Source: Victivallales bacterium (lineage in GTDB: Bacteria; Verrucomicrobiota; Lentisphaeria; Oligosphaerales; Oligosphaeraceae). Taken from it: a stretch of DNA of 64,000 bases. Position numbers and translations under genes: made by a program. Positions 2,341 through 23,315 of the stretch are shown here, one piece after another. The stretch spans positions 1-64,000 of the forward strand of contig JAFXUD010000087.1 in the NCBI GenBank assembly GCA_017535315.1, read 5' to 3'. Within the stretch, counting starts at the first letter, position 1; each line of letters begins with the position of its first letter. Below the pieces are notes generated by a model that was not told the DNA's origin, did no database searches, and saw only the letters and a list, made by a program, of their open reading frames with translations.

Positions 2341-5300
2341 ATGAAAAACCTCCTCCTACCCTATCTTTTTGCTACCCTTGCCACGCTGGCTGCCACATTG
2401 CCCGTTCCCTACCTGGAGCGTTTCGACGCGCCATTGGAGAAGATGCTCCCGCACACCGCCATCGCAGAAGGCATGGGGCTGGAAAAGGGGGCACTGGAGG
2501 TCACGGGCGCCAAGGAATCCAACCAGATTGGCTTCCTCGTCCCCTTTGACGTGACGCCTGGCGAACAGTACGCTTTCCAGCTCGTCTATAAGACCACGAA
2601 AAACGTGACAAGCAATACATTCATCGCACAGGCGGTCTTCTACAACGACAAGGGAACTAAGCAGGTTGCACCGACAACCTACTTCAAGTACGCTGGCAGC
2701 CCATCGCGCTTCACCCACCGTTTGGGCGTCTTCACCGTACCTGAAAACTGCGGGCATGTAAAGCTGATGTTGCGCTTCGCGGGGATGGCCACCGACGCCA
2801 AGGTCTGGGTCGATAACCTGCGCATCGGCAAGGTCGGCCCCAATGGCGAGCCGAAGGCCATCCTGCTCGACAACTTCGACACAACCTTTGATTCATGGGA
2901 CCTGAACCACCACCTGGTTTTCGAGCGTTTCTGCATGGGGAACGGCGGTAAAATCGTCCAAGAATGGAAACAGGCGAAAATCGGCGAAGCCTTCTTTCAG
3001 TGCAACGGCAGCCTGGAGCCAATGCAGTATTCTTTGATGATTGAAAATCTCGTGCTGAAACCGCAGCGCAACTACATCTTGGAGGGCTACTACAAGGCCA
3101 CCGACGATTTTGTCTTCAACGGCCACGGCATCCTGATCTTCTTCCAAAAGGACATCAATGGCAAAGCCATCGGCCAGACCCGCTTCCACATCCGCGAGAC
3201 AAAGGGCGAGTGGAAGCCCTTCACACACACCTTCACCACCCTGCCCGACTGCTATGCGGTCGATATCGGCCTTAACACACGCAGGATGAAGCCAGAGGAG
3301 TACGTCTGCCTCGACCACCTCCGCTTTTATGAAGGCAAGGGTGACATACGCCTCGAAACCAGCGTCACCCCCGCTGAAACTAAGTTAGACTACCGCTGCA
3401 CCTTTGTCGGCATCCCGCCTGAAACCGTGCAGAAGGCCACACTCATCATCGCAGATAACGAAGGCAAGTCCATCGTCGAGAAGGATGTGCTGGCAACGCC
3501 AGACGGCACCATCGACCTAAAGCCCATCCCCGACGCCTACTACACCATCCAGTGCAAGGCTCTTGACAAGGATGGCAAGGAGCTATCCAGCGCGAAAAAG
3601 ACGCTCGCCGTCTGCAAGAACCCGACCTGGAGCAACGACTTGGGCATCATTCGCCCCGAAGACCAGCCGCCTATTCCTTGGGCGCCCCTCGCTGGGACTG
3701 CCGACGGCAAGGTCAAAACCTGGAACGACACCTTTGCCTTCAATAACACCCTGCTGATTGAGTCCCTTCCAGGCGTTCTTGCCTCGCCAATGGCTTTCAC
3801 GCTCAACGGCGCCCCCCTGACGGCGACAACGGCCCCGAAATGGCAGTGCGCCCCCTCAAGTTGCTCCGCCACGCAGCCACTGAATGGCGACGGCTGGACA
3901 GGCACTATCCAAAGCTCCGTTGATTACAGCGGCTTCACGCGTTTCACGTTCAATCTCACGGCAACTCGCGACCTTGAACTTTCCCAGGCGCAACTGGATT
4001 TCCAGCTTGCCGCTATGGATTTCCTCCACCGCAGTGATGAAAGCTGGACTGCCGTTGGCGCCATCGACCTGCATGAGACACCGCAGTGGAGTGCGAAGCA
4101 CTTCTACAACGAAGTGACATTCGGCACGCTGGAGCGAGGTCTCGTCTGGTATGCCCCCAAAGTCTATCCCGCTGTGGAAAACCACGACACGGAGTGGCTT
4201 CACGTCGATGGCTCCGACAACTCCGTCCACATCCAGTTCGAAAATGCCCCGCGCACCCTCAAGCAGGGCGAAAGCACGGTCTATGAGTTCGCCGTCGCCC
4301 CATACCCCTTCCGCCCTGTCAGCGACAAGTGGCGTACTCTCCGCTTCCGCGGCGGCGACTACAGCAACCTGGATCTGGTCTGGCAGACAAACAGTGTCTT
4401 CAAGTACTTCGGTTCCCTGCCCGACACGGACAAGCCCGCCGAACTCCACAAGATCCTCGCCGATGACAAGATCCAGTGGCTCATCTACCAGTTCCCCTTC
4501 TACATCATGGACACCATCCCCGAGTGGAGCTATTTCGAGAAGGAGTGGCGCGCGCTTCCCGCCAGGGCATACAATTTCAAGGGCGGCCCCCATGGCGGCA
4601 TGGCCTCCAAGGGCGATATCCGCCAACGCACCTGGCAGGACTACTACCTGCGCCAGTTCAAGAAGCACCTCTCCACCTTTAAGTGGGCTGGCGTCTATTA
4701 CGACTGCTTTGGCACAGATGTCCTCCAGGAGAATGGCGAGAGCTTTCACCCCACCTTTGAGACGCGCCACTTCCAGGAGCGAATCTACGCCGTCCAACGC
4801 CAGGTGAACCCCGCCACCATTACCATCACCCACCTCGGGGCTGGGCAGTTCAACACGGCAGCCGCCTTCTCGGACGCTGTCCTCATGGGCGAACAATACC
4901 GTGGGCAATTCTCCAAGCACGACTACTACACGCAATTCATGAGCCTCGACCGTTTCCGCTATGAAAACGTTCCCCAGACTGGTCCCGCGCGCATGCTGCT
5001 ACCACAGTACCGCCGCAAGGAGCAGATCGAAGGTGTCCCCACCACGATGCACTTCCTTGGCATGGCCATTCTCCATAACCTGATGATCTACCCCAATTTC
5101 ATCAAGCAGGACCTCCAGCTCGCCATCCGTGGCAAGCTCTATGAGTACGGTCTTCAGGATGCCACCTTCTACCCCTACTGGAAGCCTGGCTGCCCCGTTA
5201 GCTCATCCAATACAGCCACCAAGGCAAGCTGCTACGAGAACCCCAAGGGCCTCTTCGTCACCGTCATGAACCCCACCCCCGACGAGCAGCCCTTCACCCT

Positions 5301-5429: not shown

Positions 5430-5690
5430 GGGGCTTCACCCCGTCCTTTGGCCCGCCAGGGGGGCGCGGGGGGCTTCCCCTCGTCCTTTGACCCGCCAGG
5501 GGGGCGCGGGGGCTTCACCCGTCCTTTGGCCCGCCAGGGGGGCGCGGGGGCTTCCCTACGTCCTTTGGCCCGCCAGGGGGGCGGGGTTTCCCCCCCATCC
5601 TTTGGCCCGCCAGGGCGGCGGGGTTTTCCCCCCATCCTTTGGCCCACCAGGGGGGCGCGGGGGGCTTCCCCTCGTCCTTTGGCCACCGCC
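5430..5690. repeat. G-rich REP-like tandem array, 37-40-bp period
   Basis: Seven cores GTCCTTTGG (two written ATCCTTTGG) begin at 5443, 5483, 5521, 5560, 5597, 5634 and 5674, spaced 40, 38, 39, 37, 37 and 40 bases. Between them are CCCGCCAGGGGGGCGCGGGG and GCTTCCCC. The irregular, non-triplet spacing shows that the long readable frame from about 5448 into the next gene is not coding. It fills the gap between the GH123-like gene and the GH106-like gene together with a double-hairpin element. Confidence 0.85.
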
Positions 5691-18163: not shown

Positions 18164-18595
18164 ATGCGCTACCTCTTTCTTGTCCTCCTTGCATTGCTTT
18201 GTGGTTGCGTTGCCACTAGACCAGGCACATCATCCAAGAAGCCTATGCCTCTCACACGCGAGGCTCACCCGCGGCATAACCAAAAGCGTTGGCTGAACCA
18301 GCGCGAGGCTATCAACAATGTGGTTGCATTTGTGGAATATGCCAAGTATGCATCACGCCGTCCGCAGGCACTTCGCGATTATGCGCTCTATGTCCGTGTC
18401 ACATATGCCGATGTCTCAATGGGTGGCAACGACGTGGATGCTGGTGTTCGCGCCTTGAATTACATTCATAAGATTCATCTGGATTGCGGCGGTTCAGGTA
18501 AATTGTGGAAGGATGTTCTGGATTTGTCCAGGATATTAGGTAATAGTAGCGACAAACAGCCTAATGGTCTGGAGCCTCCACCTGATTACAAATGA
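18164..18595 (+). CDS. small lipoprotein of unknown function
   Basis: A 143-residue protein with a type II signal peptide: MRYLFLVLLALLCGC, where LCGC is a lipobox and the Cys at about residue 15 would be lipidated. The rest is a basic, mostly helical domain without motifs that I recognise. The ATG at 18164 is chosen because it begins the signal peptide and lies beyond the terminator. Its stop codon overlaps the birA start by four bases (ATGA), so they are co-translated, although a functional link with biotin ligation is not obvious. Confidence 0.7.
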   Translation: MRYLFLVLLALLCGCVATRPGTSSKKPMPLTREAHPRHNQKRWLNQREAINNVVAFVEYAKYASRRPQALRDYALYVRVTYADVSMGGNDVDAGVRALNYIHKIHLDCGGSGKLWKDVLDLSRILGNSSDKQPNGLEPPPDYK

Positions 18596-19398
18596 ACCAG
18601 GCTATTCCAGACATCACCGCCGACGTTCTGGCAAGGCAGCTAACAACCAAGGCCATCGGTCGTTCGCTTCTCACATTGGATTCAACGGAATCCACCAACC
18701 TGACGGCTGTCGAGCTGGCTTCTACTTCTCTTCATGGTCTGGTTGTGGTTGCCGACCACCAAACAGGCGGACGCGGGCGCAATGGACGTGCATGGTTCTC
18801 TCCGCCGCAGCGCAATCTCTATTTCAGTATCCTGCTGAAACCTCCATCCCCGCCAGCCATTGTGCCACAGCTATCCATCGTCGCGGCCCTCTCGATGCAT
18901 ACCGCTCTGTTGTCACTCTTTCCACAACTGCCCGTTGCGGTCAAGTGGCCCAATGACATCTGGATTGACGGACGAAAGGCATGCGGCATTCTCTGCACCA
19001 TGTCCGCCATTGGCAACACCACGGAATATGCCGTGCTTGGACTTGGCCTGAACATCAACACCACCCTTGATGAGTTGCCTCCTGAGTTGCACGGCACAGC
19101 AACCTCCCTGTGCATCGCCAGCGGGCATCCATGTGATCGTTGCCAAGTTCTCGCCACTTTCCTAAACACTTTCGAGCAGGACTACACCCAGTGGCTTGCC
19201 GCTGCCTCACTGGCTCCCTTCATGCCTCGCTGGAGTCAGGCTTCCCTGCTGGACGGCCACCCCGTCACCGCTGAACACGGCCATGCCATCATCGCAGGAA
19301 CCGCCCGCGGCATCACACCAGAAGGCCAGCTACGGCTGGAAACCAACGGCACCATCACTCTCATTTCCGCAGGTGACGTGGCCCGCCTCCGCCTTTAA
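18592..19398 (+). CDS. birA: biotin--[acetyl-CoA-carboxylase] ligase
   Basis: A 268-residue biotin protein ligase. It has the biotinyl-AMP loop GGRGRNGRAW (about residues 59-68), the KWPND motif (about 118-122) and a C-terminal small beta domain ending in VARLRL. It attaches biotin to the carboxyl-carrier protein of acetyl-CoA carboxylase. No N-terminal helix-turn-helix is present, so it is a class I ligase that does not act as a repressor, unlike E. coli BirA. It is translationally coupled to the lipoprotein gene upstream and is followed, 14 bases on, by the RAYT gene. Confidence 0.93.
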   Translation: MNQAIPDITADVLARQLTTKAIGRSLLTLDSTESTNLTAVELASTSLHGLVVVADHQTGGRGRNGRAWFSPPQRNLYFSILLKPPSPPAIVPQLSIVAALSMHTALLSLFPQLPVAVKWPNDIWIDGRKACGILCTMSAIGNTTEYAVLGLGLNINTTLDELPPELHGTATSLCIASGHPCDRCQVLATFLNTFEQDYTQWLAAASLAPFMPRWSQASLLDGHPVTAEHGHAIIAGTARGITPEGQLRLETNGTITLISAGDVARLRL

Positions 19399-19412
19399 GC
19401 GATGGAGATGCC

Positions 19413-20606
19413 ATGAAACTGCTTTTTTCAAGACAAGGGCGACAGTTCTTTTTCTTCACCTTTTGCATTGAAGGAAGACAGCCCCTGCTCTCGCATCTGG
19501 AGCCAGGCCCCGCTCCCAAAGTCACAACAGGGGGCGCAGCCCCCCGTCCTTTGGATGCCATTCCCCTAGGCTGCGCAGGGGGCGCGGGGGGCGCAGCCCC
19601 CCGTCCGTTGGATGCCATTCCCCTAGGCTGCGCAGGGGGCGCGGAGGGCGCAGCCCCCCGTCCTTTGGATGCCATTCCCCTAGGCTGCGCAGGGGGCGCA
19701 GCCCCCCGTCCTTTGGATGCCATTCCCCTAGGCTGCGCAGGGGGCGCGGGGGGCGCAGCCCCCCGTCCTTTGGATGGCGGTGGCAATGAGCTAGCTCATG
19801 CAGTGTTGCACCCACCTGGGGAAGCGGTACTGCGGTGGCTTCTAGCCCTTCACCGTTCCAATCCAGCCCTCACGCTTTCCAATCGCGTGATCATGCCTGA
19901 CCACGTCCATTTCGTGCTCATCGTGGATTTCGACCGCGATCCAACTTTCGACCTCATCTCCTTTTCCCAGCGGTTCAGGAATGAGGCAGGAATGGGCACC
20001 ACGCCAATCTTCCGCTGGGAGCAGGATTTCTGGCTTGTGCTTTCTTTTTCACAGAGGCAGCTCGCAGCCATCCGCCGCTACATCCGCGGCAACCCAGCTC
20101 GGGCACTATGGAAAAAGGCACATCCAAACCGCTTCCAAGTGCTGGAGGGCATCCGCCATCCATCGCTCGATACGACACTTTATTGGAGCGCGGTGGGCGA
20201 TGCGACCCTGCTGGCCTCACCATTTCGCTTCCCTGTACGCCTCACCCGCAAAATCCCCGTGGAAGGCCAAGAGGAATCCATCGCTGAGGCCGTGGAACGC
20301 ACCCACTACGGAATGATTCCCGTATGTGGCTTCATCTCGCCTGCTGAACACGAATTGGAACGCCGACTACGCGACGAACCAGTAGCACGCTGGATTAAAA
20401 CAGTGCCTCATGGCCTCAAGCCTGGCTATGATCCTTCGCTGGAAGATAGCCACGCTATAGCCGAAGGAAGGCTACTGCTCCTCTCTTCTTTCCCCCCTGA
20501 AATACCAGTTTCACCCATCTCCCGCGAAAACTGCGAAATCATGAACAGCCGCATCATCGCCCTCTGCGGTGAAGCCGCCCAGCCTATAATAACCAGCCGA
20601 TTATAG
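19413..20606 (+). CDS. REP-associated tyrosine transposase (RAYT) with in-frame REP array
   Basis: A 397-residue Y1/HUH-type transposase related to IS200 TnpA. MPDHVHFVL (about residues 161-169) gives the HUH pair His164 and His166, and RRYIRGNP near residues 221-228 gives the candidate catalytic Tyr223. The N-terminal strand RQFFFFTFCIEGRQPLL is typical. Between that strand and the next helix, residues about 39-121 are encoded by five copies of the G-rich REP repeat, giving the periodic peptide APRPLDAIPLGCAGGAGG. The C-terminal 120 residues are an extra domain that I do not recognise. RAYTs act on REP hairpins; here the enzyme carries them, and inverted REPs begin one base after its stop codon. 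Confidence 0.85.
   Translation: MKLLFSRQGRQFFFFTFCIEGRQPLLSHLEPGPAPKVTTGGAAPRPLDAIPLGCAGGAGGAAPRPLDAIPLGCAGGAEGAAPRPLDAIPLGCAGGAAPRPLDAIPLGCAGGAGGAAPRPLDGGGNELAHAVLHPPGEAVLRWLLALHRSNPALTLSNRVIMPDHVHFVLIVDFDRDPTFDLISFSQRFRNEAGMGTTPIFRWEQDFWLVLSFSQRQLAAIRRYIRGNPARALWKKAHPNRFQVLEGIRHPSLDTTLYWSAVGDATLLASPFRFPVRLTRKIPVEGQEESIAEAVERTHYGMIPVCGFISPAEHELERRLRDEPVARWIKTVPHGLKPGYDPSLEDSHAIAEGRLLLLSSFPPEIPVSPISRENCEIMNSRIIALCGEAAQPIITSRL
19528..19775. repeat. five REP cores inside the transposase reading frame
   Basis: Cores GTCCTTTGG (second copy GTCCGTTGG) begin at 19546, 19603, 19660, 19708 and 19765, spaced 57, 57, 48 and 57 bases. Each follows a GGGGGC-GCA-GCCCCC type stem and, except the last, precedes a linker ATGCCATTCCCCTAGGCTGC. 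All spacings are multiples of three, so the frame is kept, unlike the arrays at 1-362 and 5430-5690. Confidence 0.9.
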
Positions 20607-20752
20607 CCAAAGGACGGGGGGCTTTGCCCCCCGCGCCCCCTATAACACCTAGGGGCGCGGGGGCGCAGCCCCCGTCCCTTGGAAGAGCCGCGCCCATACC
20701 ACCTGGGGGGCGCGGGGGCGCAAGCCCCCGTCCCTTGGAAGAGCCGCGCCCA
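20607..20752. repeat. inverted REP pair (BIME-like) plus a further direct copy
   Basis: CCAAAGGAC at 20607 begins a REP in reverse orientation immediately after the transposase stop. It faces a forward copy that ends GTCCCTTGG at 20682, the two separated by TATAACACCTA. A second forward copy ends at 20738. Both forward copies are followed by AAGAGCCGCGCCCA. Head-to-head REPs of this sort are the classical BIME arrangement found next to RAYT genes. Confidence 0.85.
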
Positions 20753-20777
20753 CCAATACAACCTAATAGGAAGAAAA

Positions 20778-23315
20778 ATGAAAACACCTAAAATCACACT
20801 CCTTTTCTGCCTCTGTTTCCTAGCCTCAGCCCTTTTCGCGCAAGCAGCGTCCTGCAAAATCACGCTTTGCGGGAAGTTGCTCACGGCGGCCAGCCATCTC
20901 ATTGTCACGCCCGTGAAGCCCACGCCATCCGAGGTCTTTGCAGCTGAGGAGCTACGCAACCACCTGGCCAAGATGACAGGCGAGACGCTTGCCATCACCG
21001 CAGAAGGCACGCAGGATGGCAGAAGCCCGCTCTTCGTGGGGAAATGCACGAGCCTGCCCATGCAGGTCGATTGGCAGAAGCTTGGGTTGGAGGGCATCCA
21101 TATCGAAACAGCAGACAATGCCCTCGTACTTGCGGGCGGACAGCGCGGCGTCCTCTATGCTGTCTATACCTTCCTAGAGGACTATCTCGACTGTCGCTGG
21201 TTTGCCACCGACTGCATCCGCATCCCAGACAGCGGTGAAAAGCACATCGATACCATCCGTAAAGTCTATGTACCCCCGCTGGAGTACCGCAACACGGACT
21301 ATCTCTGCCACAGGGATCCCGAGTTTGCCGTGCGCAACAAGTACAACGGCTACAGCGTCAAGGCGTTCCATCCGAAATGGGGTGGCATCGTCAAGTACAG
21401 GGGCTTCGTTCACACCTTCAACAGCCTGGTGCCCCCAGAGAAATACGGCAAGGAGCATCCTGAATACTACTCGGAAATCAACGGTGTTCGCGTCACGGAA
21501 CGCTCGCAGCTCTGCCTGACCAACCCTGATGTGCTGCGTATTGCCACGGCGCAAGTGCGTGAATGGATGAAAACCTCACCCGACGCCACCATCTTCAGCG
21601 TCTCCCAAAACGACTGGCGCAATTACTGCACCTGCAAAAACTGCACTGCCATCGCGGAGCGCGAAGGTAGCCAGATCGGGCCAATTCTGGAGTTTGTCAA
21701 TGCCATTGCACGCGCTGTACGCGATGAATTTCCTGACAAGATAGTCGATACTCTTGCGTACCACTACAGCCGCAAGCCGCCCAAATACCTGAAGCCCGAA
21801 CCGAATGTCGCCATCCGCCTCTGCTCCATAGAGTGCTGCTTCGCACATCCTTTGGAAACCTGTGAGTTCAACAAGAGTTTCGTGGAGGACATCGTCGGCT
21901 GGTCGAAGATATGCAACCGTCTCCACATCTGGGACTATGTCATCAACTACCACCATAACATCCAACCCTTCACAAACCTGCGGGTACTCCGTCCCAACAT
22001 CCAGTTCTTCATCAAGCACGGCGTCACAGGCATCTATGAGGAGGCCAACTACTACAGCCTCGGCGCGGAACTGGCCGAACTCCGCTCCTACATGATGGGC
22101 AAATTCCTCTGGGATCCCGATTACGATGAAAAGAAGGCACTCACGGAGTTCGTGGAAGCCTACTATGGTGCAGCCTCCCCATTCATCCAGGAGTATCTGC
22201 ACCTCGTCCATCACCAGGTTTGCGACGTGCAAAACACCCATCTGACCATCAACCTGCATCCTGCCAAGTACCTGAGCAATCCTACTATGCTTGCAGAGGC
22301 GAAAAAGCTGTTTGACCAGGCGGAGACTGCCGTTACTGGAGATGAAACTCTCTTCTTCCGCGTCAAGCTTGCCCGCCTCCCCATCATCTACACCGAAGTC
22401 ACTCTGACCCAAAATGCGCTGAAATACGAGAATGGCACCCTCGTTAACCAGAAGAGTAACATGACTGGCCTTGTCGATGAGTTTAACGCCATCGCCACCA
22501 AGGCAGGTATGACGCGTGTCGCGGAAAACCACAATGCAACCCTGGAGAACTGGGTTCGCGCAAACAAGATCGGTGTGAATCCGCTTGCCGTGAAAACCAT
22601 TGGGAATCCCTTCATCAGGCTTGATGTCATCCCCGCCCTTGGTGGACGCATTTGGCGTGCCTACGACATCGTCTCCAGCCGTGACCTCGTCAAGATAGAA
22701 GGCGACAACAAGGCAGGCTATAGTCCTTCGGTGCACGGCATTGAGGGGTATGCGTCATCCGCATACCGCGGTCCAGGCGCAACCGATGCCTTCACCGTCC
22801 GTAAAGAAGGGTATGATTTTCTGGAAATGGAGTGCGTCTTCAAGGACGGTGTCACCCTTACCCGCAGAATCGAGCTAATTCCAGGTAAGGCTGCGTTCAA
22901 AATCACCCAGAGCATCACGAGCGACAGACGCGTCAAAGGGCGTGCTACGCGCCTGCACCCCTGCTTTGCCGTACACGACACCAACCAGATTGAAATTCAT
23001 GCGAAAATCAAAGGCAAATGGCAAATGTTTGACCTTGCACGCCCAGAAGCTCCGCAGGGCGAGTACGAAATATGGTTCAATGAAAACGACAACCGCATTG
23101 ACGGCACCTGGGCCGTCCTTGACAAGACCAGCGACACCATCCTCCTCAATACCTTCACTGATACCACCGACTTCTGCTACCTCAACTGGAACGGCAAGGA
23201 CAGGCGCATCAATCTCGAACAGTGGGGAAAGACCGTCGATTTGGAGCCAGGGAAAACCTCCACCATCGAAACCACCTACGAACTTATCCCCCTTTCACGT
23301 GCCCCGTGGAAGTAA
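20778..23315 (+). CDS. secreted DUF4838-domain protein, glycosidase-like
   Basis: An 845-residue exported protein with a signal peptide at the N-terminus (MKTPKITLLFCLCFLASALF). The first about 150 residues resemble the alpha-glucuronidase-type N-terminal domain (HLAKMTGETL, GGQRGVLYAVYTFLED). The middle matches the DUF4838 family, with FSVSQNDW, a CTCKNCTAI cysteine pair and YHYSRKPPK. The C-terminal 220 residues look like a beta-sandwich of mutarotase or lyase type. DUF4838 proteins lie in polysaccharide-use loci of Bacteroidetes and PVC bacteria, but the substrate is not known. The ATG at 20778 follows ATAGGAAG and begins the signal peptide; the frame is open upstream only through REP sequence. 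Confidence 0.75.
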   Translation: MKTPKITLLFCLCFLASALFAQAASCKITLCGKLLTAASHLIVTPVKPTPSEVFAAEELRNHLAKMTGETLAITAEGTQDGRSPLFVGKCTSLPMQVDWQKLGLEGIHIETADNALVLAGGQRGVLYAVYTFLEDYLDCRWFATDCIRIPDSGEKHIDTIRKVYVPPLEYRNTDYLCHRDPEFAVRNKYNGYSVKAFHPKWGGIVKYRGFVHTFNSLVPPEKYGKEHPEYYSEINGVRVTERSQLCLTNPDVLRIATAQVREWMKTSPDATIFSVSQNDWRNYCTCKNCTAIAEREGSQIGPILEFVNAIARAVRDEFPDKIVDTLAYHYSRKPPKYLKPEPNVAIRLCSIECCFAHPLETCEFNKSFVEDIVGWSKICNRLHIWDYVINYHHNIQPFTNLRVLRPNIQFFIKHGVTGIYEEANYYSLGAELAELRSYMMGKFLWDPDYDEKKALTEFVEAYYGAASPFIQEYLHLVHHQVCDVQNTHLTINLHPAKYLSNPTMLAEAKKLFDQAETAVTGDETLFFRVKLARLPIIYTEVTLTQNALKYENGTLVNQKSNMTGLVDEFNAIATKAGMTRVAENHNATLENWVRANKIGVNPLAVKTIGNPFIRLDVIPALGGRIWRAYDIVSSRDLVKIEGDNKAGYSPSVHGIEGYASSAYRGPGATDAFTVRKEGYDFLEMECVFKDGVTLTRRIELIPGKAAFKITQSITSDRRVKGRATRLHPCFAVHDTNQIEIHAKIKGKWQMFDLARPEAPQGEYEIWFNENDNRIDGTWAVLDKTSDTILLNTFTDTTDFCYLNWNGKDRRINLEQWGKTVDLEPGKTSTIETTYELIPLSRAPWK

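Follow-up and report, generated by a model that had tools for sequence, protein, structure and literature searches.

How can the gene of a REP-associated tyrosine transposase (RAYT) hold a whole array of REP elements in its coding sequence and still keep its reading frame? The question is raised by an ORF at 19413-20606 (+ strand) of the 64,000-nucleotide stretch analysed here (the window), which belongs to contig 33 of a draft genome of 4.9 Mb in 96 contigs (G000). A first-pass annotation of the window had pointed out five REP cores inside this ORF, and had proposed that selection kept the frame intact and that the protein is made with a periodic insert of about 80 residues.

The gene and its predicted product

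The ORF has 0 internal stops and lies between a birA-like gene (18592-19398) on one side and a large ORF (20679-23315) on the other. Its features are given below; the reference for codon changes is G001, the nearest relative that we have found.

19404-19407, + strand: GGAG, likely ribosome-binding site, 5 bases upstream of the ATG (from the sequence)
19413-20606, + strand: RAYT-like Y1/HUH gene with in-frame REP array, 397 aa (NCBIfam REP_Tyr_transpos, E 1.5e-6, below cut-off)
19413-19517, + strand: codons 1-35, first strand (12 synonymous vs 1 non-synonymous codon change, reference G001)
19527-19778, + strand: in-frame REP array, about residues 39-122, with residues 41-117 predicted to be disordered (repeat search, AlphaFold2 pLDDT)
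19530-19554, + strand: REP core 1, hairpin GGGGGC-GCA-GCCCCC plus GTCCTTTGG, guide GGAC on the - strand
19587-19611, + strand: REP core 2
19644-19668, + strand: REP core 3, with one stem mismatch (GAGGGC)
19692-19716, + strand: REP core 4, after a 48-nt step, the unit being 9 nt shorter
19749-19773, + strand: REP core 5
19902-19910, + strand: HUH motif H164-V-H166 (invariant alignment columns)
20079-20093, + strand: Y223 and N227 of the Y1 motif YIRGNP (invariant alignment columns)
20145-20582, + strand: predicted C-terminal DprA-like (Rossmann) domain, about residues 245-390 (Foldseek and sequence profile)

The residues H164xH166, Y223 and N227 (the catalytic Tyr followed by NP, Y---NP) are unchanged across 38 homologues. 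Curated profiles recover the protein below their cut-offs, with 28.2 of 80 bits (E 1.5e-6) for the REP-associated tyrosine transposase family NF047646 of NCBIfam and 11.5 of 23 bits for PF01797 of Pfam, as a divergent relative would be, and we therefore call it RAYT-like; such a cut-off is no criterion of mechanism. An AlphaFold2 model built with the same 38 homologues has a mean pLDDT of 80. The first-pass annotation had suggested a fold prediction as a check, and in this model the insert stands apart: residues 41-117 fall below a pLDDT of 50, and values above 90 prevail elsewhere (264 residues at 90 or more). Searched against the PDB with Foldseek, the Y1 part matched IS200/IS605 transposases and the E. 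coli RAYT (2xm3, 2f4f, 4er8; prob 0.99-1.00) and the C-terminal part matched DprA (4ljk, E 4.5e-5) and ShosA (8zva, E 7.8e-5). A sequence profile matched the Y1 and DprA families weakly but in the same N-to-C order (E 0.018 and 0.08). These matches and their order therefore indicate that a Y1 domain is fused to a DprA-like domain, a joining of two ssDNA-handling domains in this group of RAYTs. The predicted function of the ORF product is that of a RAYT-type single-strand nuclease with a Y1/HUH and a DprA-like ssDNA-binding fold.

The genome contains the RAYT gene as one close copy and one distant relative. An IS200/IS605 insertion sequence would be expected in multiple mobile copies with defined ends, and the single close copy in 4.9 Mb does not point in that direction. 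The distant RAYT (L002, contig 41) has short tandem repeats at 1-140, in frame up to its likely start.

REP elements in the window and in the genome

Each REP unit is a GGGGGC-nnn-GCCCCC hairpin with GTCC behind it, which places GGAC at the 5' foot when the opposite strand is read. Hairpins of the form GGGGGCnnnGCCCCC are found 8 times in the window against 0.29 expected, a number that 0 of 100 shuffles reach, and 57 hairpins in the loci of the family carry GGAC at their foot, where shuffles give 0.85. The tetranucleotide conserved at the foot of the palindrome is thus GGAC and not the GT[AG]G by which REPs are recognised. Other properties are those of REPs: the elements are dispersed, mostly intergenic and often arranged as inverted pairs. 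By computation, the insert is made of the REPs of this very genome, as the first-pass annotation had it, since 30 exact-type copies of the core are scattered over 11 contigs and a reversed-pattern control gave 0. These hairpins are probably the cognate substrate of the RAYT.

Within the RAYT ORF, CCCCGTCCnTTGG is present in five copies (19542, 19599, 19656, 19704 and 19761), with steps of 57, 57, 48 and 57 nt and no stop in between, which confirms the number and spacing that had been read from the sequence. The insert that they form lies near the start of the Y1 domain, past the first strand and ahead of the HUH motif. Among the approximately 30 REP sites that we have examined in the genome, the RAYT is the sole credible gene with internal REPs. 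Non-coding REPs stand elsewhere in the window:

1-362, + strand: non-coding REP array, steps 66, 66, 68, 66 and 67
5430-5690, + strand: non-coding REP array, steps 40, 38, 39, 37, 37 and 40
20607-20683, + strand: non-coding inverted REP pair (REPIN), starting at the base after the stop codon (inverted repeat)
20705-20739, + strand: further non-coding REP, 56 nt past the preceding one, not a multiple of 3

Another array of the same genome (contig 88, 127808-128217) holds six REPs spaced 75-79 nt apart, and five of them have the same loop sequence (GGGGGCGCCAGCCCCCC). The array adjoins a predicted gene, the ORF of which may have been wrongly extended across it.

Insertion sites in related loci

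A scan of the GTDB species genomes provided 49 related loci, mostly from gut MAGs named Victivallales, Kiritimatiellae, Lentisphaerae or Verrucomicrobia (Lentisphaerota/Kiritimatiellota); no RAYT relatives were found in viral contigs. REP-type inserts appear at three places of the protein. Loop A (first strand to HUH) is occupied in the window, in G001 and in L042-L044, L046 and L047, loop B (HUH to Tyr) in about 18 loci and the C-terminal tail in L045-L047, L050 and L063. At L044 and L046 loop A holds a REPIN-like inverted pair. Mapped by parsimony on a tree built from the remaining protein sequence, loop A required 2 changes and loop B 8. Similar repeat DNA is translated as PRPL in loop A and as PPSFA or APVPW in loop B and, being read in different frames at different loops, it must therefore be regarded as a DNA element and not as a protein repeat.

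Whether internal and flanking REPs are exchanged with each other is a different matter. The internal REPs resemble their own flank or other loci to a mixed degree, the own flank ranking in the top three at just 7 of 21 loci, and concerted exchange is not claimed here. At L044 and several others there are no external REPs near the gene, and these loci therefore give no sign of copying between gene and genome. Some genomes show few REPs outside the gene.

Some loci are worth describing individually. L048 has no loop A insert; a 35-nt REP array stands directly upstream of its start codon (2726-2865) and its loop B contains two degenerate REP-like units of about 36 nt (3180-3260). RAYT-like genes of two genomes from the same family have long in-frame tandem units of another kind in loop B, one of about 30 residues repeated some four times (L030, 919-2022, in G008, a single 5.7-Mb contig) and one of GGAAQN type repeated about eight times (L019, 1045-2022, in G023). 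Both look like further cases of in-frame repeats in RAYT loops, made of other repeats.

Preservation of the reading frame

The first-pass annotation had contrasted the steps within the gene, all multiples of three, with those of the non-coding arrays. The non-coding steps that it named (68, 40, 38 and 37) do exist. It had listed only those that are not multiples of three; genome-wide, 9 of the 26 non-coding steps are divisible by three. For the window gene by itself the argument is weak (p=0.026 with all steps, 0.10 with distinct lengths), and we have therefore adopted a test across the family, where the contrast does hold. Among tandem arrays of G/C-run (REP) type, the period is divisible by 3 in 13 of 13 cases within the CDS and in 3 of 11 in the 700-base flanks (Fisher p=2.2e-4). 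The lengths of the loops tell the same story: 26 of 30 distinct HUH-to-Tyr lengths and 8 of 9 distinct strand-to-HUH lengths are in frame, as are 19 of 21 distinct lengths of REP-bearing loops (p=8e-8 against 1/3), although the array and loop counts are not fully independent because the loci are related. Similar units that differ by one base illustrate the effect directly, with 57 nt in the CDS of the window gene versus 56 past its stop. For the sister loci L078 and L067 the values are 48 nt in the CDS of the former and 47 in the 3' flank of the latter. Evidence for selection on the frame is strong family-wide, and inserts are tolerated only if they preserve it.

Constraint on both sides of the insert

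G001 is a goat-rumen MAG in 710 contigs, also named Victivallales, of the same genus and with 91-92% identity in the core; the window genome is therefore probably that of a rumen Lentisphaerota. The comparison of substitution rates around the insert, proposed in the first-pass annotation, found constraint on either side. The 35 codons upstream have dN 0.013 and dS 0.79 (dN/dS of about 0.016), and the 272-codon core has dN 0.043 and dS 0.36 (about 0.12). The upstream codons are thus under strong purifying selection and, most likely, translated; together with the frame counts, this favours an insert of some 80 residues that is translated too. For the loop A insert itself we can compare L046 with L047, where it shows 1 synonymous and 5 non-synonymous changes, against 3/0 for the N-terminus and 2/0 for the stretch from the helix to HUH. 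Though the numbers are small, they point to constraint on both sides of the insert and to little on the insert itself beyond its frame.

Origin of the insert and alternative explanations

The account that we favour, and regard as probable as a whole, is that REPs were inserted in their own RAYT gene, tolerated in frame, amplified in tandem and translated as a disordered linker. From the known link between RAYTs and REPs, the elements would have inserted and multiplied around and inside the gene of their own enzyme. The protein would move these REPs, with insertion concentrated on its own gene, and would remain active with the insert. Internal copies would survive in tolerant surface turns (loop A, loop B and the C-terminal tail) and only at lengths that keep the frame, and tandem duplication would then lengthen the inserts, two steps that the data above support. 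In the window, one REP unit in loop A probably became five tandem copies, and these a translated disordered linker of about 80 residues.

It is also conceivable, if unlikely, that the REPs in the gene are functional. Hairpins in its mRNA or DNA would then give enzyme or host a means to adjust the expression of the gene or to cut the locus itself, in the manner of the self-regulation or self-cleavage that the first-pass annotation had considered. REPs in RAYT genes do persist over deep divergence, and REP-motif matches in the family are enriched about 9-fold in the gene (32 in 54 kb of RAYT ORF vs 16 in 253 kb outside). In G100, G104 and G105 the top matches are at the RAYT locus. Against this idea, the insert mRNA folds no more strongly than shuffles that preserve its dinucleotides (z -0.55), internal REPs vary freely in number, site, orientation and loop sequence, and many homologues (L049, L052-L061) have none. 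A broader proposal, that the own gene of Y1-DprA RAYTs would be a standing reservoir of substrate, with internal REPs kept for action in cis (self-regulation or seeding of new REPs) and the translated linker joining this to the protein, appears improbable to us as well.

Somewhat less credit is due to phase variation, by which length changes in the G-rich insert would turn the protein on and off. In G001 the insert is a 127-nt stretch with long G-runs and two units instead of five, and it is one base off frame; L070 and L074 also lose the frame across REP-type inserts in loop B. However, only a few of the REP-bearing lineages are affected, and all the relatives cited as out of frame are draft MAGs, in which G-runs assemble poorly. 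Directly past the stop codon the G001 contig (L041) ends in G14C6, a sign that REPs gave the assembly trouble. Together with the G-runs and the 710 contigs, this makes an assembly error the likely reason for its frame loss, with slippage or a recent loss as less likely ones. The first-pass annotation had named a widespread frameshift in a close relative as evidence against its reading; a frameshift does occur in the nearest relative, but this is a single fragmented MAG.

We give little weight to the idea that the gene is a decaying RAYT copy, left open by chance in G/C-rich repeats that are poor in stops. A second forward frame is indeed free of stops in the array region, stops being found in just one of the three, and the Pfam and NCBIfam scores are low. 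The dN/dS values, the conserved HUH, Tyr and Asn and the frame test (p=2e-4) already contradict it. An assembly artefact with a wrong copy number is just as improbable: G000 is a draft and G001 has fewer units, but the units are not identical (one 48-nt step, GAGGGC in the third) and the frame is kept, both of which speak for a real sequence, and related inserts are present in many other assemblies. Least plausible of all is a functional protein that starts 3' of an insert with an untranslated upstream part since, in spite of an in-frame TTG seen by inspection in each REP, there is no in-frame ATG from the end of the insert to M161, and the 35 codons ahead of it show conservation at the protein level and supply the opening strands of the modelled Y1 sheet.

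Relation to known systems

As a kind, in-frame REPs in RAYT genes are already known. REPs inserted in tnpA-REP genes without loss of frame were described as unique to subclass 2.4, where they usually lie between HuH and Y (Quentin, Siguier, Chandler and Fichant, 2018, PMC6006769). The window gene is like these in having REPs both flanking the gene and inside it, in frame, the site in subclass 2.4 being a peripheral variable region. The window insert, unlike those of subclass 2.4, stands before HUH (loop A). The motifs are NH[IFV]H, WQ and YIxNNP in subclass 2.4 and DHVH, WE and YIRGNP here; subclass 2.4 lacks a C-terminal extension whereas the window protein has a DprA-like one; and the REPs are tagged GT[AG]G there and GGAC in the window group. 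The motifs, the extension, the GGAC and the second site before HUH mean that the group does not fit subclass 2.4. The main text of that paper mentions neither DprA nor GGAC, and a search of the main texts of openly accessible papers found no Y1-DprA fusion.

DprA and ShosA share the fold of the C-terminal domain at about 20% identity, which in the window protein is fused to the Y1 domain. The E. coli RAYT (TnpA-REP, PDB 4ER8) shares the Y1 HUH fold (Foldseek prob 1.00) and the REPs flanking its gene; its PDB chain of 165 aa has no DprA-like domain. We know of no REPs inside the E. coli gene. Its guide is GTAG (PMC6006769).

Short palindromes in frame have also been described in many genes for intragenic GTAG/CGTC REPs and Rickettsia palindromic elements, where clusters encode 43-82 residues and were proposed to lie in loops or linkers (Di Nocera et al., 2013, PMC3733652). 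The host genes in that study were varied (repair, tRNA), whereas in the window genome the RAYT is the only one, with the tag GGAC next to the stem.

New here are a second enzyme group (Y1 plus DprA-like), GGAC-tagged REPs, a second insertion loop and a quantitative test of the frame. In-frame REPs in RAYT genes, once a curiosity of one subclass, recur in a differently built group of gut Lentisphaerota/Kiritimatiellota, in more than one loop and with a different guide. Where arrays of similar units differ by a single base between coding and non-coding DNA, they provide a clean natural test of frame selection, and so many natural insertion variants are material for studying the sites of REP insertion and a possible action of RAYTs on the gene that encodes them.
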